Below the pieces are notes generated by a model. The model saw only the letters and a list, made by a program, of their open reading frames with translations. It searched no databases and was not told the DNA's origin. From Rhodopirellula europaea 6C (GTDB lineage Bacteria; Planctomycetota; Planctomycetia; Pirellulales; Pirellulaceae), in the NCBI RefSeq assembly GCF_000338295.1, contig NZ_ANMO01000085.1, positions 1 to 50,984 on the forward strand: a stretch of DNA of 50,984 nt, written 5' to 3'. Positions 19,285-46,036 of the stretch are shown piece after piece; positions within the stretch are counted from its first letter, which is position 1; every line of letters begins with the position of its first letter. The position numbers and the translations under genes were made by a program.

Positions 19285-20457
19285 ATGCCAAACCCCATTG
19301 CGTACAAAAAGTACAACAAGACAGCGTACCTCTTCCGTTTCAATCGACCTGATACAGGCAAGCGAACCACCTTGCGTCTGGGTGTCGTTTCGAAGTTCGT
19401 TGCAAATGACTTCGGTCAAAGGATTGACGAGATTCTGGAATGCAACAAGTACCAAACCGATTTGAGCCCGAAGCTCTATAGCTGGCTCTCGAAGCTGGAA
19501 GACGAGACCTACGACTTGCTCGTCAAGGCCGGGCTCCTGGCTGCCCGTCAGGCATCGACCCTGCCGCGATTGAAAGTCTTCCTTGATGACTATCGAGAAC
19601 TCAAGAAGGGCGGTGGCGGACGAAGCGGCGGCTGGAAGCCTGGCACCTCGAACAATCGCAAGCAAAGCGCGGATGACTTGGTCCGGTACTTCGGCGAAGA
19701 CAAGGCTCTCCACGAAATCAGTGCTGGTGACGCGGAGGACTGGTTCCAGTGGATGCAGAAGCCAGGTCCCAAGGGACGTGGACTATCCGCGGCCACCGCA
19801 TCGAAGAAGCTCAAGGACGCTCGCCAGTTTTTCCGTTACGCGGTCAAGAAAAAACTGATCGAGGAAAATCCATTCGAAGATCTTCGAATTCCAACCCAGG
19901 ACAATCCTGATCGGCTGGTCGAAGTGACTCGCGAGACGGTGCAGAAACTGATTGATGCGTTCGACGATCCTGAGTTCAAGCTGGTCCTTGCGTTGGCCCG
20001 GTTTGCTGGGCTGCGTGTGCCCTCGGAGGTTTCTTGCCTCACCTGGGATGACATCGACTTTGATGAAGAGACGATGCGTGTCTTTGCTTCCAAGACGGAG
20101 CACCACTCACGTGGTGGCCACAGAATCTGCCCGCTTCTTCCTGAGCTCGTTCCTTACCTCCAGGCCGTACGGCCAGCCGACGCAAAGCACGATGACTTCG
20201 TGTTCAGGCAACTACGAGGCCCGAAGTTGAATTTGCGGACACCTCTGCTTCGCAAGATTGAGTCGCTGAAGATGGAGCCATGGCCAAAGCTCTTCCAGAA
20301 TCTACGAGCGAACGCACTGACCGACTTGGCTGAGGAGCACCCGATCCACAAGGTTTGTCGTTGGCTTGGCAACACGGTCGATGTAGCGATGCGACACTAC
20401 GTGATCATCAAGAAGCGAGAATATGACGGGCCCCGCCAGGACAGGAAAAATCGCTAA
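19285..20457 (+). CDS. Tyrosine recombinase (phage-type integrase)
   Basis: 390 residues. The N-terminal 100 residues are a basic arm (YKKYNKTAYLFRFNRPD), then a SAM-like core-binding domain (about 105-215) with RQFFRYAVKKKLIEENPF, then the catalytic domain (about 225-385). Catalytic pieces visible: Arg in AGLRVPSE, Lys in ASKTEHH, Arg in FQNLRANAL (the usual His of HxxR is Asn here), Trp-Leu-Gly-Asn and the Tyr nucleophile in MRHYV. The Asn substitution is common in planctomycete integrases of this type. An AGAAAG ribosome-binding site lies just ahead of the ATG. It probably belongs to a small integrated element with the upstream excisionase-like gene. Confidence 0.88.
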   Translation: MPNPIAYKKYNKTAYLFRFNRPDTGKRTTLRLGVVSKFVANDFGQRIDEILECNKYQTDLSPKLYSWLSKLEDETYDLLVKAGLLAARQASTLPRLKVFLDDYRELKKGGGGRSGGWKPGTSNNRKQSADDLVRYFGEDKALHEISAGDAEDWFQWMQKPGPKGRGLSAATASKKLKDARQFFRYAVKKKLIEENPFEDLRIPTQDNPDRLVEVTRETVQKLIDAFDDPEFKLVLALARFAGLRVPSEVSCLTWDDIDFDEETMRVFASKTEHHSRGGHRICPLLPELVPYLQAVRPADAKHDDFVFRQLRGPKLNLRTPLLRKIESLKMEPWPKLFQNLRANALTDLAEEHPIHKVCRWLGNTVDVAMRHYVIIKKREYDGPRQDRKNR

Positions 20458-22108: not shown

Positions 22109-24583
22109 ATGACGAACCAAAACCAAAACCAAAAATCCATCTCCAAGACTCCGCCTGTCGCCGGCCTGCCCAGCGACGACGCACTCAGAGAACTCGCCAA
22201 AACCTACCTGAACAAACAATACCAGCACTTCCCCGAATACCATTCACTCGGACTCCTGCTGGACCGCACCGAAGCGTCCCACGAGAAGATGGCTAAGCAG
22301 TTCAGTAAAACCTACCGCTCGGGCAGCGTGCATTCATTTACGCCAACTTCGCAGGTTCCCGAGAACATGACGGTGGCCGCGTGCTACGTGCGTTACAGCG
22401 ATGCCAACTCGAACACTCGCTCGCTCGACCAACAACTCACCAACGTACTCGAAACAGCCAGACGCTCCGATGCCTTCATCCCCTGGGAACACGTCTTTGC
22501 TGATGCCGCGATCTCCGCGACGACGACTGCTCGTCCCGGATATCAATTGCTGCGGAACATGGTTGAATCGACGGAAACCATTCCCGTGGTCATCTTCGTC
22601 GATCAACTTGATCGACTGCATCGCGATCTAGTAGAAGCAAATCAGTTCAGGAGGATCCTCGAGTCGCGGCATCGCCGACTGATGACAGCGGACGGCTACG
22701 ACTCCACGAACGGGTTTGCAAAAGTTGCCCACGCGTTTTCGTCGCTGGAGGGCGAGATGTACATCGACCAACTTAAAGTGAAAGTCGATCGCGGTATGAC
22801 CGACGCGTTCAAAAACGGAAAGCACGTCTCCGCACCACCAACGGGATACAAACTCGTCGAATGCAAGGACGCCGAGGGCAACGTTATCATCAATTCCAAT
22901 AGCAGAGTGGAGAGAAAAGTTGTCATCGACGACGAAGCCGCTGAGGTTATACGGAGAATCTTCAAAATGTACGCCGAAGAGAAGCTCAGCCCGGCGAAGA
23001 TTGCGAAGGTACTCGACGGCGAGTCCGCGCTCGAAGGCTCCAGATGGGGCCAATCTAGCGTGACACAAATGCTCAAGAATGAAAAATACATTGGACGCTG
23101 GACTTGGAAAAAAACCACGCGTGTCCAGGATCCTGTCACAGGGAAACAGCGTTCGGTGCCCGTTCCTGAGGAAGAGCGATTGGTAGTCGAATTCCCAGAG
23201 CGCCGAATCGTCCCGCAAGAACTTTGGGAGGCGGCAGTTTCCCGAATGGCGGAGGTATCTCGAGACACCAATCCGCCCAAAGGCCAACGAAAAACATCGC
23301 GGCAAGAAGCCTATCCAACGATGCTCTTCGATCTTTGGTGCGAGAAGTGCGATGCTCCGTTGCGGCGTTTTCGGTCCGTCGGGGACTATGTCCAAATGAG
23401 CTGCCCTCATGGGAAGGACGGCTTGCGGGGCTGCGACCTCAAGTCGTCCAAATCTCTCCGCATCATCGAAGAGTGTCTACTGACGCCCATCAAGCAACAA
23501 CTCTTTGCCGACGGCTATGCCGAGCGACTCTGTAGCGAAGCCAACAAGTTCCTGGCGGAAGAGGCCTCCAAACCACCTGTCGACACGAAGAAGATCGAGC
23601 GGAAGGTCGCGTCCCTTACGGCGAAGTTGAAACGAAACGGACAGCGTCTCTCTAGCCTCGATGAGGGTGTGGCAGCCGACAGCCTGTTCGAGAGTATTCA
23701 GATTGATCAAAACGCTCTGACTGATCTGAGGGCAAAACTCGCACTCACGGCGAAAGCGAACTTCCGCCCCGAGCCGCTCGACGCCGAAACGATCCAAGAG
23801 TTTCTCGCAAACTTGCGTGAACTGCTGCACGACGACATCGTCAAAGCTCATGGCGTCCTTTCGAAGATGGTCGGTCAGGTACGCGTATCACTCGGTGAGA
23901 AACAAGGGCGAACTCACACGTGGCGAGCAAAGCTCAATCTAAACTCAATCCCGGCGCTGGTCGAAATTGGAAAGCAAAGGGATTGTCCAACCACACACTC
24001 ACTGGAGTTCCTTCAAGTGTGTAGTTGGACAACGGACGATCAGCAGCGAGTGACGATCGTTGACATCCCCAATTATCAGCGAATTGCGGCAGCTGCGATC
24101 AAAATGTATCGTGCAGGGTCGCCGGTCAATCGCATTGCCGTGGCTCTGAAGAGCGATCCATCGACCGTCAAAAAAGCAATCGAGTGGGCGGAAAACAACG
24201 ACACGGGCTTCATTCCACCCGCCGACTTCAGCGTCCGTCGGAAGCTTGCGAACAACAAAACGGCAAAGATCGGCCCCGAAGTCGTACGGCTGCGAAACCA
24301 AGGCCTCAGGTTCGAGGAGATCGCCGAAAAGCTCGGTACAACGGGAGGCACCGCCTCACGAGCCTACAAACAATTCCATTCCGAGAAGAACATCGCAGCT
24401 GTTGAGAAGGGAGAGCTTCTCGACACCGGAAAAAACAAACGAAAGATTTCGCCTGATCAGGTGAACCTGATCAGGACGATGCTCGCCGACAAAGGCCATA
24501 GTCAGAGAGCGATTGCCAAGGCGGTCGGCGTCTCGCCGTCCACCGTGCGTGATGAAATCAAACGCATGGCGACTTCGATGTGA
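22109..24583 (+). CDS. Large serine recombinase with N-terminal extension and C-terminal HTH segments
   Basis: 824 residues. An unusual 90-residue N-terminal extension precedes the catalytic domain, whose nucleophile is Ser97 in CYVRYSDANSN, with VDQLDRLHRD as the D-x-x-R loop. The recombinase domain (about 270-400) contains EVIRRIFKMYAEEKLSPAKIAKVL and SVTQMLKNEKYIGRWTW. A zinc ribbon follows near 410-445 (CEKC...SCPHG...GC). Then comes a coiled-coil stretch (about 490-560), and from about 650 to the end there are at least three HTH-like segments (SPVNRIAVALKSDPSTVKKA, RFEEIAEKLGTTGGTASRAY, QRAIAKAVGVSPSTVRDE). Large serine integrases normally start near the catalytic domain and end soon after the coiled coil, so both ends are atypical. 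It shares its extension with the two broken copies upstream. Confidence 0.88.
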   Translation: MTNQNQNQKSISKTPPVAGLPSDDALRELAKTYLNKQYQHFPEYHSLGLLLDRTEASHEKMAKQFSKTYRSGSVHSFTPTSQVPENMTVAACYVRYSDANSNTRSLDQQLTNVLETARRSDAFIPWEHVFADAAISATTTARPGYQLLRNMVESTETIPVVIFVDQLDRLHRDLVEANQFRRILESRHRRLMTADGYDSTNGFAKVAHAFSSLEGEMYIDQLKVKVDRGMTDAFKNGKHVSAPPTGYKLVECKDAEGNVIINSNSRVERKVVIDDEAAEVIRRIFKMYAEEKLSPAKIAKVLDGESALEGSRWGQSSVTQMLKNEKYIGRWTWKKTTRVQDPVTGKQRSVPVPEEERLVVEFPERRIVPQELWEAAVSRMAEVSRDTNPPKGQRKTSRQEAYPTMLFDLWCEKCDAPLRRFRSVGDYVQMSCPHGKDGLRGCDLKSSKSLRIIEECLLTPIKQQLFADGYAERLCSEANKFLAEEASKPPVDTKKIERKVASLTAKLKRNGQRLSSLDEGVAADSLFESIQIDQNALTDLRAKLALTAKANFRPEPLDAETIQEFLANLRELLHDDIVKAHGVLSKMVGQVRVSLGEKQGRTHTWRAKLNLNSIPALVEIGKQRDCPTTHSLEFLQVCSWTTDDQQRVTIVDIPNYQRIAAAAIKMYRAGSPVNRIAVALKSDPSTVKKAIEWAENNDTGFIPPADFSVRRKLANNKTAKIGPEVVRLRNQGLRFEEIAEKLGTTGGTASRAYKQFHSEKNIAAVEKGELLDTGKNKRKISPDQVNLIRTMLADKGHSQRAIAKAVGVSPSTVRDEIKRMATSM

Positions 24584-26098: not shown

Positions 26099-29000
26099 AT
26101 GACTCCATCCGAACTTGATCTTCTTCTGGAAAAAGCTCTTTCGATGGACTCAGGGCAACGCGACGAACTAGTCAAATCGCTCCAGCCGGAAATCGCTCGC
26201 CGTCTGTCAGAACTTGTAGCAGCGTCGGAATCGCTTCGCGAGCGTCCGTTCCTGGCCAAACCAATTGCCGGTCAGGACATTGATGCAACGCTCGGCAGTG
26301 GACAGCTCGCCGAAGAATCAGCTTCTCTCTCTGGTGAATCGCTCCCATCGGGCGGTCAAGACAAACTCAATGACGAGAAGACCCTAGGTGCGGCTTCGAG
26401 TCAAACACAATTTTCCAATCTCTCTGGTCAGCAGCTTTCTCAAAGCCAAATTGGTCCTTACCACATCCTGAAACCGATTGGCGAAGGGGGGATGGGAACG
26501 GTCTTCCTCGCCGAGCAGCGCGAGCCCATTCGTCGCCGAGTGGCACTCAAGGTGATCAAGACCGAAACGCCAACTGCCGCCGTCGTCGCAAGATTTGAGG
26601 CGGAGCGGCAGGCGTTGGCGTTGATGGATCACCAAAGCATCGCTCGCGTGCTTGATGCGGGTACGACTCAAACGGGTAACCCCTATTTCGTGATGGAATT
26701 GGTCGATGGTAAGCCGATCACCGATTTCTGTGATGCGAACAAACTCTCCCCTGACGAACGGCTCAATCTATTCGCTCAGGTCTGTCGCGCGGTCCAGCAT
26801 GCCCACCAAAAAGGAATCATTCATCGCGATTTGAAACCATCCAATGTGTTGGTAGCACGTCAAGACGATCATTCAATCGTCAAGGTCATCGACTTTGGTT
26901 TGGCCAAAGCTGTGGGAAACCAAATGCACTTGGCGGGCGAACGAATGCTCACCCAGTTCGGCCAAATTGTTGGCACGCTTGCCTACATGAGCCCCGAGCA
27001 GGCGAGATTGAATGCGAACGACATTGACACACAGACCGACGTTTATTCGTTAGGCGTCATCTTTTATGAACTCATGACCGGATCGACACCGGTGACTCGG
27101 GAGCGGATGCGTGCCGAAGCGTTTGATCGCGTACTGCAGTCCATTCGCGAAGAAGAAGCCCCGAAACCAAGCATCCGACTGAGCGAGTCGGGCGAGGCGA
27201 TCGCTGGAATCTCCATGCTCCGACGTACCAACCCCAAGCGTTTGGGAATGATTCTTCGCGGCGAGCTAGATTGGATCGCCGTGAAAGCTCTGGAAAAAGA
27301 GCGGTCGCGTCGGTACGCCACCGCGGCGTCACTGGCCGATGATGTCGAGCGATACTTGCGCGGTGAGGCGATCGAGGCCAGGCCACCGAGCGTGGCCTAC
27401 CGAACCAGGAAGTTTCTACGAAAGAACTTTTTGGTCGCTGCAAGCTTGCTCGCGGTTCTGAGTACTTTGACGGTTGGGATCGTGGGGGTGAGTTGGTTTG
27501 CTTATTCGGCAAATCAAGCGGCGAAATCTGAACGCGAACAACAGCGGATTGTTACGGAAAAATCCCGCGAACTGGAGGCTACACTTCAGTTAGCCGACGC
27601 AAACTTAGCGCGGTCGCAATTCTATCTCGCAAATGCCCGACTGAATGAAAACCGAACCGAATTGGCTTTGGACACGCTTGAGAAGGTCCCGCCTCGACAT
27701 CGCAAGATCGAATGGCACTTTGCAAAACAGAAATGTACAGGGGGATTTTGCACACTTTCCGATAGCGAGTACGCGATCAACGCTGTTGCGATCAGTCCCG
27801 ACGGAAATCGAGTTGCATCGGGTGGCGAAGACGCGACCATTCGTATTCGCGATACATCAAACGGAAATTTGGTGAAAACTCTCAGCCAGCATCGACACCG
27901 TATTGAAGACCTCGTCTATTCGCATGACGGAACCATGCTTGCTTCCGCCAGCTTTGACGGCACCATCAAACTTTGGAACGCCGAAACTTTTGAACTGGTC
28001 AAAACCTACAGCGACCACGGATCGCCGGTAAATTCCGTCGCGTTCAGTCCGGATGGTACCCGAGTCGCATCTGGTTCCGATCAAGAGCTTGATCGAGATG
28101 CCAGACGCCGTGGTGAAGTGAAAATATCGACGGAAGGAACCGTCAAAGTTTGGGACATCGAGACTGGGGAGACAATTCGTTCATGGACTGACCACAGCAA
28201 CCATGTCCACGATGTAGCATTCAGCCCAGACGGAACCAAGCTAGTGTCGTCGGGAATGGAGGTGATTGTTTGGGATTTAGAAAACGGAAAGAAACTGAAA
28301 ACGCTCGAAGGTCACGAATTTCATGTTACCAGTGTGTTGTATTCCCCCGACGGCAAACGCCTTTTGTCTGCGGGGGATCGAGGAAGAACTGCAATCATCT
28401 GGGATGTCCAATCAGGCAGCCGACAACATACTCTTCGCGGCCACAATGAATTTCTGACCGGGGCAATATTCAGCCCAGATGGCATGAGTGCTGCGACGGC
28501 TAGCGCAGACCACACGATCAAGATTTGGGATAGCCAAACGGGAAAGCTCGTCCGAACACTCAAAGGACATCAGGGCTGGGTAAGAGACATCGCGTACTTT
28601 AGTGACGGAAAGACATTGGTGTCCGCAAGTCGCGATAGAACGCTCAAGTTTTGGGATCTTTCGGTGACCGACGAAGAGGCATCGTTCTCATTTGACGGGC
28701 CAGTCAATGACTTGGCTTGGTGCGATCATTCTCAACGGCTTGCGGTTGCTGGTCCAGGCACGTCGATTCAAATCCGCAACCTGAAGAGTCGCAAGCCGAT
28801 CAGAACGATCGCGACGGACCACAACCGAGAAGTAAATTGCGTGGACATCAGTAGCGATGGACAAAGGTTGGTTTCAGGAGGTTGGGACGCGACCGCGTGC
28901 CTATGGGACACAGAAACAGGCGATTTGTTATTGGAACTCGATACAAAGACAGATTCCTCGATCTCCGATGTCGCTTTCACCGCCGATGGAAAACACATTG

Positions 29001-29620
29001 CAACGACCGGGGACTCGGTTAATATTTGGAACGCGGAAACCGGTAAACACGAACTCGCGTTTGCGGAGCATAGCGACCATGTGTTTGCCGTGTCATTTAG
29101 TGATGACGGAAGATGGGTCGCCACCGGAGGGGCAAAAGATAAAACAGCCATGGTTTGGGATCGAGAAACCGGTGAGGTCAAGCTGAAGCTGCCCGATCAT
29201 CGGTTCTGGGTTTATGACCTTTGCTTCACGCCAAACAACGAAGAGCTTGCAACCGTCGCTTCAGGTACCGTGACCATTTGGCGGTTGAGCGACGGCCAGA
29301 TACAACGTCAATTCAAGCACGATGGGGTTCGGCGTGTCGCATTCCTCGACGTCTCGCGAATGCTGACCGCAAACGACTCTGCCGGCGAAAGCACGATCAA
29401 GATATGGGATGTCCAAACCGGCGAAGAACTGCTTTCGATGGATGGGCACCAGAATCGAATCGAAGCAATCAAAGTGGTTGCCGTGGAAGGTCAGGCCAAC
29501 TACTTCCTGAGCGGAGGCTACGACCAAACCATAAAAGTGTGGAGGCCGATTGTCGCTTCAAAGAACAAACTGATACGTCGAAAGTTAGCAACCGTCCAGA
29601 CGCCTCGACTAACCGACTGA
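26099..29620 (+). CDS. Ser/Thr protein kinase with C-terminal WD40 propellers
   Basis: 1173 residues. Residues about 120-420 are a Hanks-type kinase: glycine loop IGEGGMGTVF, Lys151 in VALKVIK, HRDLKPSN with Asp244, DFG at 265 and the APE-region equivalent MSPEQ. One membrane helix lies at about 445-468, then a short coiled coil (about 475-510). From about 560 to 1165 there are roughly fourteen WD40 repeats (patterns such as VNSVAFSPDGTRVASGS and TIKIWD), enough for two seven-bladed propellers, presumably outside the cytoplasm. This design is frequent in planctomycetes, often next to ECF sigma genes. Here the sigma gene is convergent and the 3' ends overlap by 12 bases. The signal sensed is unknown. 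Confidence 0.93.
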   Translation: MTPSELDLLLEKALSMDSGQRDELVKSLQPEIARRLSELVAASESLRERPFLAKPIAGQDIDATLGSGQLAEESASLSGESLPSGGQDKLNDEKTLGAASSQTQFSNLSGQQLSQSQIGPYHILKPIGEGGMGTVFLAEQREPIRRRVALKVIKTETPTAAVVARFEAERQALALMDHQSIARVLDAGTTQTGNPYFVMELVDGKPITDFCDANKLSPDERLNLFAQVCRAVQHAHQKGIIHRDLKPSNVLVARQDDHSIVKVIDFGLAKAVGNQMHLAGERMLTQFGQIVGTLAYMSPEQARLNANDIDTQTDVYSLGVIFYELMTGSTPVTRERMRAEAFDRVLQSIREEEAPKPSIRLSESGEAIAGISMLRRTNPKRLGMILRGELDWIAVKALEKERSRRYATAASLADDVERYLRGEAIEARPPSVAYRTRKFLRKNFLVAASLLAVLSTLTVGIVGVSWFAYSANQAAKSEREQQRIVTEKSRELEATLQLADANLARSQFYLANARLNENRTELALDTLEKVPPRHRKIEWHFAKQKCTGGFCTLSDSEYAINAVAISPDGNRVASGGEDATIRIRDTSNGNLVKTLSQHRHRIEDLVYSHDGTMLASASFDGTIKLWNAETFELVKTYSDHGSPVNSVAFSPDGTRVASGSDQELDRDARRRGEVKISTEGTVKVWDIETGETIRSWTDHSNHVHDVAFSPDGTKLVSSGMEVIVWDLENGKKLKTLEGHEFHVTSVLYSPDGKRLLSAGDRGRTAIIWDVQSGSRQHTLRGHNEFLTGAIFSPDGMSAATASADHTIKIWDSQTGKLVRTLKGHQGWVRDIAYFSDGKTLVSASRDRTLKFWDLSVTDEEASFSFDGPVNDLAWCDHSQRLAVAGPGTSIQIRNLKSRKPIRTIATDHNREVNCVDISSDGQRLVSGGWDATACLWDTETGDLLLELDTKTDSSISDVAFTADGKHIATTGDSVNIWNAETGKHELAFAEHSDHVFAVSFSDDGRWVATGGAKDKTAMVWDRETGEVKLKLPDHRFWVYDLCFTPNNEELATVASGTVTIWRLSDGQIQRQFKHDGVRRVAFLDVSRMLTANDSAGESTIKIWDVQTGEELLSMDGHQNRIEAIKVVAVEGQANYFLSGGYDQTIKVWRPIVASKNKLIRRKLATVQTPRLTD

Positions 29621-30301
29621 TTCGCCGCCCTTGCGTGCCTTGCGAATGATCGCGTGAAGCTTGATTCGCGCCAATCGCCAGTCTCGCTCGACCGTCGCCG
29701 GTGATACCCCAAGCATCTGTGCCGTTTCCTGAATACTCGCTCCGCTGAAAAACCGATGCTCAACCACCTCGCGTTGTCGAGGTGATTCTTCATTCAGTTG
29801 GTTCAGTGCTTCATGAAGGTCTTCAAACTCACAACCATTTTCGCTCACGAACCCTTCGAGCAAGGTATCCCAAGGCTCACGTTTTCGATCTCCGCCGCGT
29901 TTGCTTGAATCGCGTTTGCGAGCATGATCGACCAACACTTGCCGCATGGCGCGGTTGGCCGATGAGTAAAGGTGTCGCCGGTTTTCAGCGGATTCGATCG
30001 CGTTCTCGCGAAGCAATTTCAAAACGACTTCATTGACAACCCCGCTCAACCCGAGCGTATGTCCGTTCCGTTCGTTCTGCATCACCGAAACGCCACAACG
30101 CCTTAGCTCGCCTACCAGGACGCTGAAAAGATCTTCCCTCGCATTTGGGACATTCGCTCGAGCCAAATCCAGCAGATAAGTCACTGAGTTTTCAGACGAG
30201 TCGGAACGAGTGAGGCGTGATTGGTTCAAAGGACGGCCAATGAAAAGTGTAATTCTGATGCCATTTGCGCGGCTCGATTCTTCGCGATCCGTCAATTGCA
30301 T
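29609..30301 (-). CDS. Planctomycete-type ECF sigma factor
   Basis: About 230 residues from the ATG at 30301; a longer frame starts at 30355 but would overlap the CoA-binding pseudogene. Region 2 resembles VNEVVLKLLRENAIESAENRRHLYSSANRAMRQVLVDHARKR, and region 4 contains SPRQREVVEHRFFSGASIQETAQMLGVSPATVERDWRLAR, a clear sigma-70 region-4 HTH. This subgroup is common in planctomycetes and is usually encoded beside a Ser/Thr kinase that phosphorylates or otherwise controls it. Here the partner is likely the WD40 kinase gene, which is convergent with a 12-base tail overlap, so the two transcripts would be antisense at their ends. The exact start is uncertain. Confidence 0.85.
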   Translation of the reverse strand: MQLTDREESSRANGIRITLFIGRPLNQSRLTRSDSSENSVTYLLDLARANVPNAREDLFSVLVGELRRCGVSVMQNERNGHTLGLSGVVNEVVLKLLRENAIESAENRRHLYSSANRAMRQVLVDHARKRDSSKRGGDRKREPWDTLLEGFVSENGCEFEDLHEALNQLNEESPRQREVVEHRFFSGASIQETAQMLGVSPATVERDWRLARIKLHAIIRKARKGGESVG

Positions 30302-30311
30302 CGTAAGCAAC

Positions 30312-30699
30312 TCATGGTCGAGCAAGCAAAACCAAAATGCAACTTCCGTCGTCAATGACGTTGATGACGGCCTCGCGTGCAGATTCGCTGGCCTGTTCGT
30401 CTTCCGCGCCCGGCTGCATTCAGATGTGCTTTACTCCGGCCGCGATCGCGTCGGCGACGACTTGGCGAGTGACCTCGGGTGGCGTGATGATCGACAGCGA
30501 TTTGGGAACGACGGGTGGGTCAGCGATCTTCAGGTACGCCTTGTGCCCGTCAATCTCTTCGGTGATGGGGTTGAGTGGATAGGTTTTGCGGTCGGCGGGG
30601 AGCAATGCTTTGAAGACCTTGTAACCATACTTGTGCGTACGAGCCGATGCGCCGGCGACGGCGTAGGTTTGCAGCAAGAAGGGATTCGATTTCGTTCAT
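30312..30699 (-). pseudogene. CoA-binding (YccU-like) protein pseudogene
   Basis: The minus strand encodes a CoA-binding/Rossmann-like protein: MNEIESLL, then AVAGASARTHKYGYKVFKALL, YPLNPITEEIDGHKAY, PKSLSIITPPEVTRQVV and, at the end, QPGAEDEQASESA...VIDDGSCILVLLARP. Two lesions break it. One is a frameshift near 30678 just after the first eight codons. The other is a TGA at 30420-30422 in KHI*MQPGAED, where the family has Trp, so a single TGG to TGA change explains it. The remains are only lightly decayed, so inactivation is probably recent. Its left end overlaps the longest possible frame of the ECF sigma gene. Confidence 0.85.
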
Positions 30700-31013
30700 G
30701 CGGTCGAGTACTTTTGCAGAAGCGTGCGGTTCTGTAGTTGAGGGCGGAGACCTCGCAGAGAAACACTTTCGCGAAAAAACGATTTCGTGCGAACCCTGCT
30801 GACGCCAACGCGTCTATCTCTCCGAACGCACAAGTCACATTCATAGACGAGCGAGTAACGAGCTTTCTGATGTTAACGAATATTCAATCCAGTCGACTCG
30901 AACAGATACACGAAGGCAATCTCTTCGGCGGGCAACCGTTGAATACAGATAATGCCCCGGCGTATCCGCGTCTGATGTGACACTCGCTTTTATTAGCGAA
31001 CGACTTCTTCATG
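30700..31013. other. Gene-free leader before the tRNA array
   Basis: About 310 bases between the CoA-binding pseudogene and the terminator-like hairpin. No protein or RNA gene was recognised. It may carry the promoter of the tRNA array, but no promoter boxes could be assigned. Confidence 0.4.
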
Positions 31014-31048
31014 AAGGCTCGGTGTCACACAGGCATCGAGCCTTTTTT
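31014..31048 (+). terminator. Rho-independent terminator-like hairpin upstream of the tRNA array
   Basis: AAGGCTCG (31014-31021) pairs with CGAGCCTT (31037-31044) around a 15-base loop, and the T-run TTTTTT extends to 31048. On the plus strand this fits an intrinsic terminator. It would insulate the array from upstream transcription, or mark the end of an untranslated RNA whose start was not found. Confidence 0.55.
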
Positions 31049-31091
31049 CGTGTCCGCATCGAACGGGCAACTCCAATAGCGAACCCAACAT

Positions 31092-31163
31092 GGGCTGGTA
31101 GCTGAGACGGTCTAGCGGCGGTCTGAAGAACCGCAGACGAGGATTCGAGCGCCTCCCGGCCCA
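31092..31163 (+). tRNA. tRNA-Phe(GAA)
   Basis: Acceptor GGGCTGG pairs with CCGGCCC over seven pairs (one G-T). Anticodon stem GCGGT/ACCGC with loop CTGAAGA gives GAA. The D-stem has only three pairs (GCT/AGC). The T-arm has TTCGAGC as loop with four good pairs and one A-G mismatch. Discriminator A. No CCA. Confidence 0.85.
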
Positions 31164-31186
31164 CTGACAAGGAAGATATTCGCCGA

Positions 31187-31289
31187 CGGCAACTGCTGCG
31201 GCGATGGAAGCACGCCTGGTTTGGGACCAGGAGGCTGTTTTCATTTGTGAGTGGCTCCGCCACGGGCGGTTCGACTCCGAGGTGTCCGA
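31187..31289 (+). tRNA. tRNA-Pro(TGG)-like unit with long variable region, possibly degenerate
   Basis: A perfect anticodon arm CCTGG-TTTGGGA-CCAGG (31215-31231) gives anticodon TGG, identical in loop to the Pro tRNA at 32444. A D-like stem TGCT/AGCA precedes it. A TTCGACT T-loop is at 31270-31276 but its stem keeps only three pairs, and the best acceptor (CGGCAAC with GTGTCCG) keeps five of seven. About 33 bases, including a GTGG/CCAC hairpin, sit in the variable region, which is not normal for tRNA-Pro. It may be a tRNA pseudogene with an insertion or an unusual tRNA-like RNA. Confidence 0.4.
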
Positions 31290-31306
31290 CTTTTGAAACG
31301 ACAGAT

Positions 31307-31378
31307 GGTAGTCGAGGGCTGGTTGTCCAGGCCTTGCTGATAACGAGGTTGTGCCGAGTTCGATCCTCGGGGCTACCA
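31307..31378 (+). tRNA. tRNA-Ile(GAT)
   Basis: Acceptor GGTAGTC/GGCTACC (one T-G), anticodon arm CCTTG-CTGATAA-CGAGG, perfect T-arm CCGAG-TTCGATC-CTCGG, discriminator A. The D-stem is short (GGC/GCC). Confidence 0.88.
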
Positions 31379-31455
31379 CTTACGACAACGACACGAAAGA
31401 AAACCAACATGCTGCCTGCACTGCGATTGAAACGCATAGCCGCGACTGAAAAAGC

Positions 31456-31528
31456 GGGGCTGTGGTGTAACTGGCAGCATGACGGACTTTTAATCCGTTC
31501 GGTGAGGGTTCAACTCCCTTCTGCCCCA
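31456..31528 (+). tRNA. tRNA-Lys(TTT)
   Basis: Acceptor GGGGCTG/CTGCCCC with one T-T mismatch, anticodon arm ACGGA-CTTTTAA-TCCGT, T-arm GAGGG-TTCAACT-CCCTT, discriminator A as expected for Lys. The D-stem is weak. Confidence 0.85.
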
Positions 31529-31539
31529 TCGCTACACAT

Positions 31540-31612
31540 CGGCGTGTAGCTCAGGGGTGAGAGCGGCGTCCTTATAAGGCGACGGTCGCGGGTTCAATTC
31601 CCGCCACGCCGA
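31540..31612 (+). tRNA. tRNA-Ile(TAT)
   Basis: A fully regular cloverleaf: acceptor CGGCGTG/CACGCCG, D-stem GCTC/GAGC, T-arm GCGGG-TTCAATT-CCCGC, discriminator A. The anticodon loop CTTATAA gives TAT, which reads AUA directly. The outermost pair of the anticodon stem is weak. Most bacteria read AUA with a lysidine-modified CAT tRNA, so an encoded TAT is uncommon. Confidence 0.85.
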
Positions 31613-31637
31613 CTGAAACGAAACAACGACGACACAT

Positions 31638-31710
31638 GGGATTGTGGCAGACAAGGTAATGCATCGGACTCTTAATCCGAGCGATGTGAGTTCGATTCTC
31701 ACCGATCCCA
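31638..31710 (+). tRNA. tRNA-Lys(CTT)
   Basis: Acceptor GGGATTG/CGATCCC, anticodon arm TCGGA-CTCTTAA-TCCGA, perfect T-arm GTGAG-TTCGATT-CTCAC, discriminator A. The D-arm is irregular (GCA/TGC core). Confidence 0.88.
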
Positions 31711-31731
31711 CTTGGAAATAGCAAATAGCTA

Positions 31732-31796
31732 TTAGCCGTTAGCGATTAGCTCCAGCACTGGAAAGCTAGTTGCCAAGAGCTAACCGCTAAATGCTA
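31732..31796. repeat. Imperfect inverted repeat in the tRNA array
   Basis: TTAGCCGTTAGCGATTAGCT (31732-31751) faces AGCTAACCGCTAAATGCTA (31778-31796). Most bases pair, with a 26-base loop that contains TCCAGCACTG, a sequence repeated at the start of the next tRNA (31798-31807). It looks like a dispersed intergenic repeat that has inserted between two tRNA genes. Confidence 0.65.
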
Positions 31797-31801
31797 CTCC
31801 A

Positions 31802-31872
31802 GCACTGATGGTCTAACGGCAAGACTCCTCCGTCGTAACGAGGTGATGCGGGTTCGATTCCGGCTCGGTGCT
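31802..31872 (+). tRNA. tRNA-Thr(CGT)
   Basis: Acceptor GCACTGA/TCGGTGC, D-stem GTCT/AGAC, T-arm GCGGG-TTCGATT-CCGGC with one mismatch. The anticodon loop GTCGTAA gives CGT; the closing pair of the stem is C-C. G1-C72 and C2-G71, the Thr identity pairs, are kept. Discriminator T is unusual for Thr. Confidence 0.7.
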
Positions 31873-31924
31873 CTTGAACGCTTCGGCGTATTGATCTTTG
31901 ACAGTTTGGTAGTGATGCATTTTT

Positions 31925-31995
31925 GCGCCCATGATGTAGCGGTAGCCTGCTGCCTTGCCATGGCGGAAGTGTGGGTTCGACTCCCACTGGGCGCT
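31925..31995 (+). tRNA. tRNA-Gly(GCC)
   Basis: Perfect acceptor GCGCCCA/TGGGCGC, anticodon arm CTGCC-TTGCCAT-GGCGG, perfect T-arm GTGGG-TTCGACT-CCCAC, discriminator T as usual for bacterial Gly. The D-stem pairs poorly. Confidence 0.87.
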
Positions 31996-32003
31996 TTGTA
32001 GAA

Positions 32004-32075
32004 TCCGGCGTGGCCCAATGGTAGGGCGGCTCCCTGTTAAGGAGACGAGTGATGGTTCGAGTCCATCCGCCGGAG
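32004..32075 (+). tRNA. tRNA-Asn(GTT)
   Basis: Perfect acceptor TCCGGCG/CGCCGGA, D-stem GCCC/GGGC, anticodon loop CTGTTAA with stem GCTCC/GGAGA (one mismatch), perfect T-arm GATGG-TTCGAGT-CCATC, discriminator G as expected for Asn. Confidence 0.9.
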
Positions 32076-32081
32076 CTTCGC

Positions 32082-32150
32082 GAAGTTTGAAGGGTGAAGC
32101 GAGAAGTGTGAGATAGCTCGCTTCGTTTCACACCTCGGCCTTCAAGCTTC
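32082..32150. repeat. Long imperfect hairpin in the tRNA array
   Basis: Outer arms GAAGTTTGAAGG (32082-32093) and CCTTCAAGCTTC (32139-32150) pair with one G-T. An inner perfect 8-bp stem GAAGCGAG/CTCGCTTC lies at 32096-32124. It separates the Asn and Gly(TCC) genes and could be a mobile hairpin repeat or a processing signal. Confidence 0.7.
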
Positions 32151-32160
32151 CGCATGTTTC

Positions 32161-32232
32161 GTGTCCTTGGCCGAGCGGCAAAGGTTCCGGACTTCCAATC
32201 CGGCTAGGTGGGTTCGACTCCCACAGGACACT
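32161..32232 (+). tRNA. tRNA-Gly(TCC)
   Basis: Perfect acceptor GTGTCCT/AGGACAC, anticodon arm CCGGA-CTTCCAA-TCCGG, perfect T-arm GTGGG-TTCGACT-CCCAC, discriminator T. The T-arm is identical to that of the Gly(GCC) unit, suggesting common descent. Confidence 0.9.
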
Positions 32233-32247
32233 CTTTTGTCTTGAAAA

Positions 32248-32321
32248 ACTCTCTCTCCGGCGCGTCGTCGCGACGTGAGCCTTTGAAGCTCGCAGGTCGG
32301 GTTCAATTCCCGGACGGAGTG
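32248..32321 (+). tRNA. tRNA-Gln(TTG)
   Basis: Anticodon arm TGAGC-CTTTGAA-GCTCG gives TTG. T-arm TCGGG-TTCAATT-CCCGG. Acceptor ACTCTCT/ACGGAGT has one mismatch and one wobble. Discriminator G is right for Gln. The D-arm lacks the usual shape; CGTCG-TCG-CGACG can form instead, so this unit is structurally odd. Confidence 0.65.
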
Positions 32322-32342
32322 CTGATTTATTGAAGACCAAAC

Positions 32343-32433
32343 GCCGGAGTAGCAGTTGTTGGTCGCTGCACCTGACTCTGGAAGTGTTTTCCGCCGAGGG
32401 GGTCGTTCATTGGTTCGATTCCAGTCTCCGGTG
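32343..32433 (+). tRNA. Class II tRNA, probably tRNA-Ser(GGA)
   Basis: Acceptor GCCGGAG/CTCCGGT (first pair G-T), D-stem GCAG/CTGC and T-arm ATTGG-TTCGATT-CCAGT are good. At 91 bases it has a long variable region, as in Ser, Leu or Tyr tRNAs, and its discriminator G fits Ser. The anticodon stem pairs badly; the loop read as CTGGAAG gives GGA (Ser), but another register would give CTG. Anticodon therefore uncertain. Confidence 0.6.
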
Positions 32434-32443
32434 CTGATGTTTT

Positions 32444-32514
32444 CGGGTATAGCTTGGAGTAAGCGGTGTGGTTTGGGACCACGCATGGACAGTGTGCGAC
32501 TCACTGATACCCGA
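32444..32514 (+). tRNA. tRNA-Pro(TGG) with altered T-loop
   Basis: Perfect acceptor CGGGTAT/ATACCCG, D-stem GCTT/AAGC with a 5-base loop, anticodon arm TGTGG-TTTGGGA-CCACG, perfect T-stem CAGTG/CACTG and discriminator A. The T-loop is TGCGACT: position 55, almost always T (pseudouridine), is G. Confidence 0.8.
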
Positions 32515-32516
32515 CT

Positions 32517-32592
32517 GTGGCCAGATCTGGTGTTGGTTTCCAGAGACTCACTGTGAATGAGTTTGTCGCCGGTTCAATTCCGGTTGGTCACC
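32517..32592 (+). tRNA. tRNA-His(GTG)
   Basis: Acceptor GTGGCCA/TGGTCAC, D-stem TCTGG/CCAGA, anticodon arm ACTCA-CTGTGAA-TGAGT, T-arm GCCGG-TTCAATT-CCGGT, discriminator C73 as required for His. The base before position 1 is T (32516), so the normally encoded G-1 is missing. It begins two bases after the Pro unit. Confidence 0.85.
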
Positions 32593-32607
32593 CTCGTGAA
32601 CATTTCC

Positions 32608-32680
32608 GGTGGCAATTTCCTTTGGGAAGGAAGCTTGATTGTCCATCAAGTCGCTGCGGGTTCGACTCCCGTTGCCATCG
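32608..32680 (+). tRNA. tRNA-Asp(GTC)
   Basis: Acceptor GGTGGCA/TGCCATC (one G-T), D-stem TTCC/GGAA, anticodon arm CTTGA-TTGTCCA-TCAAG, T-arm GCGGG-TTCGACT-CCCGT, discriminator G as expected for Asp. It is the last unit; a truncated protein gene begins within about ten bases of its end. Confidence 0.9.
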
Positions 32681-32686
32681 CTTTAG

Positions 32687-33114
32687 TTCGCGGTAAAGAC
32701 ATCCAGATCGCTGTTTATGACGCCGAGTTGCTACGCTTCAAACGTGCGTTTCCCTGGAATCCTGAGTCCGGGCAAGTGGAAGTGAGTGCTTTGGCAGTCG
32801 ATGCCGCCAGCGGTCTCGTCTGGTCGACGGACTGGGTGAGTGGCAACTATGTCTATCGTTACCGGCTCGCCGACGGAGAATACGCCGGTAAGTTGCACTT
32901 GCGACCGGTCCCTCAGTGGCAACAGGGCATCGCGTGTTACCGTGGCAACCTTTTCATCACTGCTGATGACGGCGATGCCGACAACCAGGAGGCCGACAAT
33001 CTCTGGAAAGCGCCGGCTGATGCCACGGGGACGGGGGGCACTGTTAACCGGTTTCACAGCAATGACTTAGGTCACTGCCGTGTCAATTCCCGCGATTTTC
33101 CTGGCATGGCGTGA
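32687..33114 (+). pseudogene. 5'-truncated beta-propeller (SMP-30/gluconolactonase-like) fragment
   Basis: Directly after tRNA-Asp the plus strand reads a protein without a start: VRGKDIQIAVYDAELLRFKR, then PESGQVEVSALAVDAASGLVW, YRYRLADGEYAGKLHLRPVP and GIACYRGNLFITADDGDAD. This resembles the middle or C-terminal part of secreted six-bladed propellers related to SMP-30 or NHL proteins. The frame goes on through KAPADATGTGG into sequence that no longer looks like the family and stops at 33112. No start codon or N-terminal half remains, since the tRNA array occupies that place. It is best explained as a gene cut by a rearrangement at the array's end. Confidence 0.7.
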
Positions 33115-42996: not shown

Positions 42997-44379
42997 ATGA
43001 TTCAATTCAAGATTTCCAAGCAATGGCGTCCGGTTTTCCTGACGTTACTGGCTGTCGTGGCACTATTGTTTCGCGACGCTGACGGCGATGATTCGACGAA
43101 ATCACGAATCAAGATCGATCGGGAGACGACTTTTTTGACAAGCCCGCTACGAACCGATGGAACGGTGGACTACGCGGCCGGCATCAATGCTCGAATAAAG
43201 CAGGGCGTCACCCCAGAAAACAACGTCTGCGTTTTGCTCTGCGAAGCGATGCAGCCGCTGCGGGTTTGGGACATGCCGCCGGAGTACTTCAAGGAAATCG
43301 GAAGAACGCCGCCACCGAAAGATCGCAGTCATGTCCGCTACCTTACTGCCGGAATCGCGGATCCCTCGTCCGAGGCCGCGAAGCAACGACTTTATCTTGT
43401 CGTCGAGTTTATCCAAGGTGATCCGCGTCCGTGGAAGCGATCGGAATTCCCGGAAGTTGCCAAGGTACTCGATGGTGATGCCGAGCCTCTGAGAATCGTT
43501 CTTCAGGCGACCGAACGCGACCAATTCTATTCGCCAGTCATCACGCGCGGTGTGGACGAAGTGGATCCATTGCCGCTCGTTGCGGCGATGGATCCGATGA
43601 CAACCCAGTTGCCTTACCTGGTGCATTCTCTGCGGATGCGTGCCATGCTGAATCTGGGAGAAGGCAACCACGAAGCAGCCTGGGAAGATCTACTTGCCTG
43701 CTTCAAACTCGGAAGACTCCTAGGCATGGGGATGAGCAAGACACACGCGCAACACAGTCACATGCTCGAAGAACAGAACTGTGCCGCGATGGAGGCTTAT
43801 ATTCGTACGGCGGACCCTTCTCGATCGCAAGCGAAGCAGTATCTCAGAGCACTTCAGTCTTTGCCTGCCCGCGTAAGACTGAGTGAAAAGATCGACTTGT
43901 TCGAACGTTGTGCCTATCTCGATGCACTGCTCGTCATCCGAACGAATCAGGAGGAAGCAATCGCCTATCTCGACTGTGAACCAGGTCTCGCCGCGGCCGG
44001 CAAAATGGTGAATCGGTTTTGGAAAGACGCCATTGACTGGAACGAAACGCTTCGAATCGGCAATCGGTACTACGATCGTCTGGTCAAGAGCCTGGAAAAG
44101 ACGGATCCTGCTCAGCGCCGTGAAGAGACGACGATGCTTCATCAAGAGTTGAAGAGTCTTGCGGAGAGAGCCACTGGCATTCGAGTTACGGACGACACAG
44201 CAAAGGGTAACGCGGCAACTGAGTCAAAATCGATGCTTCTCGCCGCCATCATCGCTGAAAACCTGATGTCCGACATCGACAAGCATCTGGCTTCCGAGGC
44301 TCGTATGAAGCAGCGGTTCGAAAATCTCGAAAAGACGTTGGCACTTGTCGCGAACCGCAATGGCTTTCGTGAGGAATAA
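42997..44379 (+). CDS. Secreted planctomycete-specific protein, unknown function
   Basis: 460 residues. An N-terminal signal or anchor (VFLTLLAVVALLF) leads into a mature part opening TTFLTSPLRTDGTVDYAAGINARIKQGVTPENNVCVLLCEAM, a conserved start that I associate with a planctomycete hypothetical family. The rest is mainly helical, with a motif-like DLLACFKLGRLLGMG and HSHMLEEQNCAAMEAY. No enzymatic motif was recognised. It lies upstream of the ankyrin protein on the same strand, with the next likely start 32 bases after its stop. Confidence 0.75.
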   Translation: MIQFKISKQWRPVFLTLLAVVALLFRDADGDDSTKSRIKIDRETTFLTSPLRTDGTVDYAAGINARIKQGVTPENNVCVLLCEAMQPLRVWDMPPEYFKEIGRTPPPKDRSHVRYLTAGIADPSSEAAKQRLYLVVEFIQGDPRPWKRSEFPEVAKVLDGDAEPLRIVLQATERDQFYSPVITRGVDEVDPLPLVAAMDPMTTQLPYLVHSLRMRAMLNLGEGNHEAAWEDLLACFKLGRLLGMGMSKTHAQHSHMLEEQNCAAMEAYIRTADPSRSQAKQYLRALQSLPARVRLSEKIDLFERCAYLDALLVIRTNQEEAIAYLDCEPGLAAAGKMVNRFWKDAIDWNETLRIGNRYYDRLVKSLEKTDPAQRREETTMLHQELKSLAERATGIRVTDDTAKGNAATESKSMLLAAIIAENLMSDIDKHLASEARMKQRFENLEKTLALVANRNGFREE

Positions 44380-44410
44380 GAGAAGCGAAGACAAGTCGGA
44401 GCATGTGCAA

Positions 44411-46036
44411 ATGAGCAACGCAATGCGTTTGGTGGCGGCGACAATCTTGGGCGTTCTGTTCATTGCGGTTGTCCTATCGGTCGCACAAGAGTCGACACAG
44501 GTCCCGGCTTCTGAGCGTGCGTCATCGCCGGTTGCGGAGTCACGACCAGATCAGTCGGAAGAAATCGCCAAAAGAATAACGGCGAGCGATCTCAATCAAG
44601 ATTCCAAGTTGTTGTATGAATGTCTCGTGATGCAACCCGAGGCCTGGAGGTCCGGCCTGGTCGAGAATCTCGGCGTGAGTTCCGTCGTCGGGCCGAAGCA
44701 TGATCCGAAACGTGTCAGGCAGGTGTTTCGGTCGTTCGACTTAGCTGACAGCAATGGAGAGAAGTACAAGGTTATCTTGGCGGACAGGTCAGGGCTGCGG
44801 CGAAAGCGAGTTCGTTCGACGTACATCGTGACAGATCACCATTTCGCTTTGATCGCTTGGCAATGGCCCCCTATTGACGGTGAACTTGTATCGAAAACCA
44901 AACTCCAAGGGGACTCGTTCCCGGCGGTCCTGCAATTGAGCGAAGCTTCCAGGCACAACGGTGACGTGGGACACTTCGAGTTCCGGCTGACAAAGCGAGG
45001 AATTGAAGGAATTCGAAATGGATTCGGTGGGAGGCGATGGCCTCCGTCACCCATGGTCCTCAAGCGTCGCGTGAAAATCCTGGAGCAGCGCGAGCGACAA
45101 TTGATCGATCAGCTACGCTCTTTTCTGTCGCTTCCCGATGACAGCATCGAAAAGGTTTGTTCAGAACTCGCCAAAGATGCGAAAAGGCGCCGCGAACAAC
45201 GTGCGGAACGCGAACAGCGGGCCATTGATATTGGTCCTACGGACTCGGAGGACATGCAAATCGCACTCGGCGAATCGGTGGACAGATTCGAGCAGGAAGT
45301 TCAGGAGTTGAGTTCAGCTGAGGGGGACGCATTTGACGGCCGGCTGGAACCACTCCTCCGATTGTGTATTCAACGCGGGCTGTTGGACTCGGTTAAGATT
45401 GCAGTCGCTGCAGGTGCCGATGTAAATCGATCCGTCGGCAGCGGGAGCGCGCCGTTGCACGAAGCGATGTTCAGCATGATCCCAATGCCGCTTCAAACGA
45501 GGATCGTTGAGGCACTGCTTCAAGCTGGTGCTGACCCGAACGAAACCATTGCCGAGGGAGCGAAAGGTGGCGTTTCTGGGGGACGCTCTCCGCTGATGGC
45601 GGCCTTGAATCATCGTCATCCTCCCATGTTGAAAGCGCTGTTGGACGCTGGGGCGGATTGCAACGTCACCGATAGGATTGGCAGGAACGCGTTACACCTG
45701 TTGGCGCATTCACCGCATTTCGAGGAATCACCGGCGATGGCCCAGTTGTTGATCGAAGCAGGATGCGATGTCGACAATGCCGACAATCATGGTGAGACGG
45801 TGATGCACGTGGCCGCGATGTCGGCCGCATCGTATCCAGACGGAATCGAACACAGCTTAAGATTTCTCAGGCTGATCTTAGATCAGCACCCGGACCTGTC
45901 GCTTCGGGACACGCATGGATACCGGGCCCTCCAGTCAAAACGCAAGCATCATGTTCCCCAAGACTTTGAAAAGATACTCGCGAGCCTGCGTGACCATGAG
46001 GTGGCGAAACGCTGGATCGACAGGAAAGATCAGTGA
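44411..46036 (+). CDS. Secreted or membrane-anchored ankyrin-repeat protein
   Basis: 541 residues from the ATG at 44411, with GGAG nine bases ahead; upstream in-frame starts exist but overlap the previous gene. A hydrophobic N-terminal segment (LVAATILGVLFIAVVLSVAQ) works as signal or anchor. Residues about 30-310 are of unknown fold with a charged coiled-coil region (EKVCSELAKDAKRRREQRAERE). From about 320 to 530 there are five or six ankyrin repeats (GADVNRSVGSGSAPLHEA, LLQAGADPNE, LLDAGADCNVTDRIGRNALH, LIEAGCDVDNADNHGETVMH). Likely a protein-binding scaffold. Confidence 0.85.
   Translation: MSNAMRLVAATILGVLFIAVVLSVAQESTQVPASERASSPVAESRPDQSEEIAKRITASDLNQDSKLLYECLVMQPEAWRSGLVENLGVSSVVGPKHDPKRVRQVFRSFDLADSNGEKYKVILADRSGLRRKRVRSTYIVTDHHFALIAWQWPPIDGELVSKTKLQGDSFPAVLQLSEASRHNGDVGHFEFRLTKRGIEGIRNGFGGRRWPPSPMVLKRRVKILEQRERQLIDQLRSFLSLPDDSIEKVCSELAKDAKRRREQRAEREQRAIDIGPTDSEDMQIALGESVDRFEQEVQELSSAEGDAFDGRLEPLLRLCIQRGLLDSVKIAVAAGADVNRSVGSGSAPLHEAMFSMIPMPLQTRIVEALLQAGADPNETIAEGAKGGVSGGRSPLMAALNHRHPPMLKALLDAGADCNVTDRIGRNALHLLAHSPHFEESPAMAQLLIEAGCDVDNADNHGETVMHVAAMSAASYPDGIEHSLRFLRLILDQHPDLSLRDTHGYRALQSKRKHHVPQDFEKILASLRDHEVAKRWIDRKDQ

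Follow-up and report, generated by a model that had tools for sequence, protein, structure and literature searches.

The window analysed here, a 50,984-nucleotide stretch of Rhodopirellula europaea 6C (NZ_ANMO01000085.1, contig C85 of a draft genome of 7.19 Mb in 273 contigs), carries a dense one-strand array of transfer RNA (tRNA) genes that is a truncated, partly decayed duplicate bearing a piece of an old neighbour, a CoA-binding gene. The copy keeps the leader and the first third of an operon whose family occurs in many genomes of the class, in several of them as multiple copies, and is patchily distributed and laterally exchanged. Longer operons of the family mostly open with tRNA-Phe behind a conserved intrinsic terminator. 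Taken as a whole, the arrays are on balance probably a laterally exchanged, attenuated reserve tRNA operon like the trn operon of Anabaena, with stress as the putative trigger, and the window holds a truncated and decayed copy of it.

ARAGORN places 13 tRNA genes in the window, all on the + strand between 31092 and 32681, with Phe first and Asp last; eight of the 13 reach the gathering score of the Rfam tRNA model. The original prediction counted 15 units on one strand. The dense one-strand array stands, whereas two of those units (Pro and a Gln(CTG)-like one) are relics, and a tally of 13 units covering 10 amino acids is preferred. At 13 genes per 1.59 kb the density lies above the criterion for arrays: a tRNA array unit is defined by at least two clustered tRNA genes per kb, and the survey concerned used at least 15 genes, a number that the window's 13 reaches only with its two relics counted and that longer copies in relatives, with up to 42, exceed (PMC6409571; this and most other papers are cited for individual passages). 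The units are as follows.

31092..31164, + strand: tRNA-Phe(GAA), first array unit (ARAGORN; Rfam 52.4 bits)
31205..31289 (approximately), + strand: tRNA-Pro(TGG) relic, 5′ part gone (compared with the intact C136 unit)
31307..31379, + strand: tRNA-Ile(GAT) (ARAGORN; no Rfam match)
31456..31528, + strand: tRNA-Lys(TTT) (ARAGORN; Rfam 60.9 bits)
31540..31613, + strand: tRNA-Ile(TAT) (ARAGORN; Rfam 64.9 bits)
31638..31711, + strand: tRNA-Lys(CTT) (ARAGORN; Rfam 63.0 bits)
31802..31873, + strand: tRNA-Thr(CGT) (ARAGORN; Rfam 43.8 bits)
31925..31995, + strand: tRNA-Gly(GCC) (ARAGORN; Rfam 55.0 bits)
32004..32076, + strand: tRNA-Asn(GTT) (ARAGORN; Rfam 65.0 bits)
32161..32233, + strand: tRNA-Gly(TCC) (ARAGORN; Rfam 57.4 bits)
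32254..32322, + strand: tRNA-Gln(TTG), acceptor with 5/7 pairs (ARAGORN; stem count)
32343..32433, + strand: tRNA-Gln(CTG)-like relic with inserted bases (intact unit at the same place in the relative G012)
32444..32515, + strand: tRNA-Pro(TGG), the second Pro, T-loop TGCGACT (ARAGORN; stem count)
32517..32593, + strand: tRNA-His(GTG), no encoded G at −1 (ARAGORN; Rfam 27.2 bits, just under the cut-off)
32608..32681, + strand: tRNA-Asp(GTC), last unit, with the array cut right after it (ARAGORN; Glu comes next in C7)

The stem counts are partly circular, as ARAGORN itself picks good stems. A 75-base stretch of tRNA-Ile(GAT) is 100% identical in G009 and in one G010 array. The 5′ part of the Pro relic may have gone between two copies of GATGGAAGCA, both still present in C136.

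Outside the arrays the genome encodes 40 distinct tRNAs for all 20 amino acids. Because this core set is complete by itself, the window array is accessory and redundant with the housekeeping complement, and the possibility that it constitutes the core tRNA set is ruled out. Array units share 62–77% identity with the best core tRNA for the same amino acid, and Ile(TAT) is the sole window anticodon not found in the core set. The absence of an encoded CCA, true of the array as predicted, is not special to it: judged by printed gene ends, none of the 40 core tRNAs has one.

The genome holds three arrays: that of the window, one on C136 that apparently continues on C7, and a remnant on C120. The C136 copy is longer, is 94% identical to the window array and has its Pro unit intact. 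C7 begins 3 bases before His and, after Asp, runs on through Glu, Glu, Trp, Val and Ala (ARAGORN); the window copy therefore breaks off where the next tRNA begins. C120 carries a decayed array with no ARAGORN tRNA; adjoining it are a GNAT gene and a CoA-binding gene that is intact. The window retains a damaged relative of the latter:

30318..30746, − strand: CoA-binding (CoA_binding_2) pseudogene (tblastn with the intact C120 paralogue: 70% over 144 residues, two in-frame stops)

Full-length CoA-binding matches also stand beside arrays in G003, G004, G007, G008 and G010, and the window relic is therefore a passenger of the duplicated segment and not a victim of insertion. The gene is indeed broken upstream of the array, as first reported, by its two in-frame stops; it was not broken by the array, however, and its copy moved along with it. 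Insertion of the array as the cause was rejected, since the intact paralogue adjoins a decayed array at C120.

Array DNA of the window matches 48 of 60 genomes (its own included), many of the matches spanning single tRNAs only. Fetched loci of relatives contain up to 42 tRNAs on one strand; all 20 isotypes are present in L086 and 17 to 19 in seven other arrays counted. The order of units is shared as well: between L086 and six further arrays, including one from a different taxonomic order, the common subsequence is 28–36 units long against shuffled maxima of 12–14, and the window order scores above the best shuffle in 11 of 12 comparisons and ties with it in the remaining one (L132). In all 22 comparisons with the window, with the Gln(CTG) relic assigned to tRNA and the Pro relic to spacer, the tRNA parts are better conserved than the spacers.

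Identity of the arrays does not track that of core genes, for which the secE-nusG-rplK region (Pfam) served as reference. Core identity is 94% for G004, 93% for G002 and 77–84% for G012, while spacer identity to the window is 0.71 and 0.75 for the two arrays of G004 and 0.88 for G012; G002, a single-contig genome, has no leader and two weak array matches only. Within the genus, nine of 12 relatives possess the leader and G001, G002 and G006 do not, G001 nevertheless keeping an array remnant. Because presence in the genus is patchy and array identity is out of step with core identity, the array is supported as accessory and laterally exchanged. To this extent the proposed imported or mobile tRNA cassette holds, and the check suggested with it, against the genome's own set and against relatives, returned a separate complete set and an array missing, by leader, from three of 12 genus genomes; a phage or plasmid origin is not supported.

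Three array units called by ARAGORN have the stop-reading anticodons CTA or TTA (L078:6457-6543, L132:7940-8012 and L229:2031-2102); two of the three sit where relatives have Ser or Asn, and they are perhaps mutated anticodons or miscalls. Genes for 23S rRNA intervening-sequence (IVP) proteins lie in or beside arrays L072, L073, L081, L083, L127, L132, L134, L249 and L250, antisense to the tRNAs in all nine first-listed matches.

Discriminator bases of the array units fit their amino acids, as originally predicted, and vary little or not at all within most anticodons, with Arg(GCG) mixed (12 A of 18). The Ala pair G3:U70 is present in 27/30 array Ala units. Of 23 array His units, 17 carry U at position −1, whereas core His and the His of distant arrays have G; G−1 is the identity element of bacterial histidyl-tRNA synthetase. 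These data bear on the view, proposed in 2016 for planctomycetes, that such clusters are dispensable wreckage, horizontally acquired, degenerate and without present function. Relics and truncation in the window, the C120 remnant without a single ARAGORN tRNA, the absence by leader from three of 12 genus genomes and the degenerate clusters described in passages of PMC4807772 all suit that view. It is nonetheless regarded as very unlikely, given that tRNAs outdo spacers in every comparison, unit order is conserved, tRNA identity elements are mostly kept and the terminator shows compensatory changes.

That terminator forms part of a leader ahead of the first tRNA:

30976..31056, + strand: array leader, element I (TGTGACAC) plus intrinsic terminator (covariance model R1, 102.3 bits; conservation)
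30977..30983, + strand: element I, GTGACAC, a putative antiterminator strand that could pair with GTGTCAC in the terminator stem-loop
31013..31048, + strand: intrinsic terminator (hairpin 31013–31045) and U-tract, before the first tRNA (scan: 14-pair stem, 5-base loop)

The terminator-like hairpin first noticed upstream of the array is real and strongly conserved. Model R1, built from 15 sequences among which is the window leader itself, matches 28/60 genomes, with two leaders in G004, and 57/248 genomes drawn from the class, other orders included. At least four tRNAs lie downstream of the leader in 27/30 and 14/14 fetched loci. The three of 30 leader loci without a tRNA (L117 to L119, L117 at a contig end) were excluded from the set of 52 leaders, so that a tRNA downstream in 52/52 reflects a selected set.

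Across 54 distinct rows, 98.7% of the cells of the terminator stem are paired and six of 13 modelled pairs show compensatory changes. Both sides are changed in 6 pairs and 37 cells, against 2.4 pairs and 10.0 cells in shuffles, in an alignment that was fitted to the model and hence leans towards the stem. In A5, the first alignment, which involved no such fitting, double-sided changes number 3 pairs and 4 cells against 0.6 and 0.6; L079 (wrong coordinates) and L087 had been removed from the leader alignment before it. Three half-length reverse-strand matches are included in the stem counts, left out of those for element I and spacing, and treated as gaps in the antiterminator test. Element I (consensus TGTGACRC) is nearly invariant, as much so as the stem. 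Its seven-pair alternative with GTGTCAC is complete in 37/52 leaders and has at least six pairs in 49/52, with 95% of cells paired; lone-strand folds of four leaders show the terminator and not this alternative.

From the U-tract to the first tRNA there are 29 bases or fewer in 16/52 leaders, and 43 in the window. A sigma-70 promoter needs about 40 bases, and in those 16 leaders the promoter must therefore lie upstream of the terminator, with read-through required. We conclude that the transcript is attenuated, with the intrinsic terminator inside it, the spacing pointing to an upstream start; a scan of 30700–32750 for sigma-70-type promoters gave one site, with 0.8 expected. The hairpin might instead be an insulating terminator against upstream transcription, with the array promoter just after it, as a strong intrinsic terminator, the 43 bases before tRNA-Phe in the window and the weakly supported alternative pairing would allow. 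Given the short spacing in the 16 leaders and an upstream element I as invariant as the stem, this arrangement is judged distinctly unlikely.

Partner genes were surveyed at 47 arrays, five of 52 loci having been dropped for holding under five clustered tRNAs and the first-listed match taken per gene and locus; several of these arrays end at contig ends. In part of the relatives, genes on the tRNA strand, within the array or following it, encode a slipin, an HNH nuclease, a 276-residue protein or, in a few cases, a Ro60-fold protein plus ARPP-1, with the HNH gene inside or right after 8/47 arrays. The Ro60-like protein, of 544 residues, matches nothing in Pfam or NCBIfam and, by profile search, nothing in PDB; its assignment rests on a Ro60 fold (helical repeat plus VWA). 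Its gene stands 351–460 bases downstream of four arrays from different families, ARPP-1 alongside, and three weaker homologues (28–30%; G006, G007 and G032) have no tRNA in their fetched loci. The 276-residue family (e.g. L073:4330-5160) is very conserved, with 7344 homologues at E ≤ 0.001 among 7998 candidates scored. It belongs to no family in Pfam, PHROGs, NCBIfam or PADLOC and its structural model (mean pLDDT 65.9) matches no fold, with a best Foldseek E of 0.44; of its 22 places in relatives, 10 are in arrays, 10 outside, and two are fragments near one or two tRNAs.

The Ro60-fold gene recurring behind four arrays of different families raises the possibility that the main role of array RNAs lies outside translation, where they would serve Ro60-type or SPFH proteins as tRNA-like ligands in the manner of Y RNAs, or form a decoy pool. 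ROT/TROVE proteins are treated as an RNA-repair platform with a tRNA-like partner in part of a jumbo-phage review (PMC7824862), and the irregular D-arms (remarked on in the original prediction; Rfam scores) and His units without G−1 would fit such a role. It is given little credence, since anticodon loops, discriminators and Ala G3:U70, all needless for a mere ligand, are kept, and the Ro60-like gene accompanies just four of the 47 arrays.

A further reading makes the array an anti-defence cassette, a mobile-element cargo replacing or decoying tRNAs cut by anticodon nucleases of hosts or rivals, of which the host keeps decaying copies. In its favour are the patchy, multi-copy distribution, the HNH genes at 8/47 arrays, a likeness to mycobacterial arrays (PMC5966550), and a 2026 paper on M. 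avium that reportedly terms such arrays a putative antidefense system (PMC12803027). One contig filed as viral (IMG/VR L176, IMGVR_UViG_2887592959_000001) also carries a long array with the family's leader. Among its ten scanned ORFs (open reading frames; PHROGs) are glycosyltransferase and radical-SAM families; one tape-measure match is weak (E 4.5e-4), and no other structural gene was found. Against it, plasmid and phage collections yield only short matches to the array (3–7% of the query) and L176 is the single viral-contig match, found by exact pattern; an origin from phages or plasmids is thus left unsupported. Several species share the chromosomal GNAT/CoA-binding neighbourhood, and of seven proteins PADLOC models match only the HNH. 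Overall, the anti-defence reading is unlikely.

Recombinases do stand about where they were first reported: a serine recombinase (22109–24583) about 6.5 kb and a tyrosine recombinase (19285–20457) about 10.6 kb upstream of the array. That they move the array is another matter, and no general link emerged, since 2/56 array-related loci searched with both proteins have any match. One is a distant serine match (L122, 24%) and the other a tyrosine-recombinase fragment in L132 (G056; 1236–1571), 46% over 112 residues to the window protein and about 0.8 kb upstream of the array. No recombinase is among the annotated part of the ORF families common to at least three of 23 loci; the arrays may have other movers. 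An empty site at the window locus was not recovered in the 12 other genus genomes, where the left flank gives short weak matches only and the right flank, apart from short pieces, partial matches at 66–74%. One ORF reads out of the array:

32557..33114, + strand: 185-residue ORF whose downstream part is a gene fragment at the cut end (ORF list)

It has no Pfam match, and its 140-residue downstream part matches nothing in 19 other genomes; neither the name nor the lost half of the propeller gene once proposed here is supported. The end of the array is abrupt at the start of the next tRNA whatever the identity of this ORF. Elsewhere in the window, 26099–29620 encodes a 1173-residue protein kinase with a long WD40 propeller, adjoined on the opposite strand by an ECF sigma factor gene (29609–30355), and 44345–46036 a 563-residue ORF with ankyrin repeats in its C-terminal half.

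The best reading remains that of a reserve tRNA operon, a function suggested by analogy because partner genes are shared with the Anabaena trn regulon. Transcription would start upstream of the terminator and normally stop there. When translation is stressed or tRNAs are damaged, element I (GTGACAC) would pair with GTGTCAC in the terminator, or a factor would bind, and with the terminator disabled the polymerase could read on into a second, sequence-divergent tRNA set; in some species RNA-care proteins would be made together with the array tRNAs. In its most specific form, the proposal is of a planctomycete-wide, attenuator-switched second tRNA set, encoded by one long operon, whose leader RNA would respond to a loss of translation or to damaged tRNAs. 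It would release a divergent and nearly complete set of tRNAs, with or without RNA-care proteins (Ro60-like, ARPP-1, slipin, HNH and the 276-residue protein), in place of those disabled by nucleases or antibiotics. This version is offered tentatively, with confidence somewhat short of even. The switch of the window copy may still work, and that copy could yield no more than about 13 tRNAs, serving 10 amino acids.

Several observations weigh against the reserve operon and its switch. Five of the 13 window units fall under the Rfam cut-off, and the Gln(TTG) acceptor, the Pro(TGG) T-loop and His without G−1 look poor. In A5, the count of further terminator pair types is within chance (180/500). 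The alternative pairing is so nearly invariant, with only 3 cells changed on both sides, that covariation barely tests it; a control slid by +2 has an equal covariation score (0.103 against 0.104), and in the first alignment 34/500 shuffles reach the antiterminator score. Alternatively, element I together with its reverse complement may form a DNA operator. Partners are sparse too, with slipin or HNH at only 17/47 arrays, the Ro60-like gene at 4/47 and RtcB at 3/47 (28–30% identity, 2–9 kb away). The window and C136 arrays have none of ten partner genes and C7 only a 95-residue ORF, and the window's genome encodes neither the 276-residue nor the Ro60-like protein.

Bacterial tRNA arrays have long been known, with an experimentally supported role mainly in Anabaena, as far as the literature seen goes. 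Planctomycete tRNA clusters as such are not new either, having been reported in 2016: passages of that account describe degenerate, probably transferred clusters with a single Ile-UAU in Porphyra isolates (PMC4807772). Sharing with the present family the bacterial group, the kind of cluster and the Ile-UAU unit, they are very probably the same thing; the main-text passages concerned do not mention a leader, embedded genes, conserved order or copy numbers (PMC4807772). In a literature search of limited coverage, only part of it directed at Ro60 or TROVE and with subscription papers mostly outside it, no report was found of the leader, unit order, copy history or array–Ro60 link. What the present analysis adds is one array family traceable through the class by conserved order, a switch-like leader RNA and partner genes that recur. 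What lies in the window is a decaying, truncated duplicate, and its value is as a lead to this class-wide family and its testable switch. If the reading is true, degenerate clusters acquired by transfer become a testable inducible system, some arrays of which are tied to a Ro60-fold protein.

Among known systems, the mycobacterial array units of plasmids and phages are likewise dense and multi-isotype, with HNH genes and lateral spread (PMC5966550, in part). Unlike them, the planctomycete family was not found on plasmids or phages beyond short matches, and the main text of the mycobacterial paper contains neither the word terminator nor the word slipin (PMC5966550). Bacterial Ro60 (Rsr) systems likewise have a protein of the Ro60 fold (helical repeat plus VWA), here with ARPP-1 downstream of four arrays. 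Y RNAs belong to those systems; the planctomycete loci differ in their long tRNA array and in having RtcB seldom near (3/47). The closest parallels discussed are with Anabaena sp. PCC 7120. Its trn operon of 26 tRNAs is carried on a megaplasmid, silent and induced by translation inhibitors (PMC10272220), and is repressed together with rtcB by TrcR, the regulon also including a slipin and an HNH gene (PMC10272220, PMC9938897), as far as the passages cited describe. Control there is by the RHH repressor TrcR. The planctomycete family, known here from sequence, has a conserved leader with a terminator, and some relatives have genes for slipin, HNH and a Ro60-like protein inside the array or after it; the family is multi-copy, with no plasmid match found, unlike the Anabaena plasmid copy. 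In Anabaena the HNH gene is adjacent and slipin and rtcB belong to the trn regulon, and slipin and HNH genes recur at some planctomycete arrays. The trn operon, an L-array on the delta megaplasmid, is likewise a long many-isotype array beside a complete housekeeping set.

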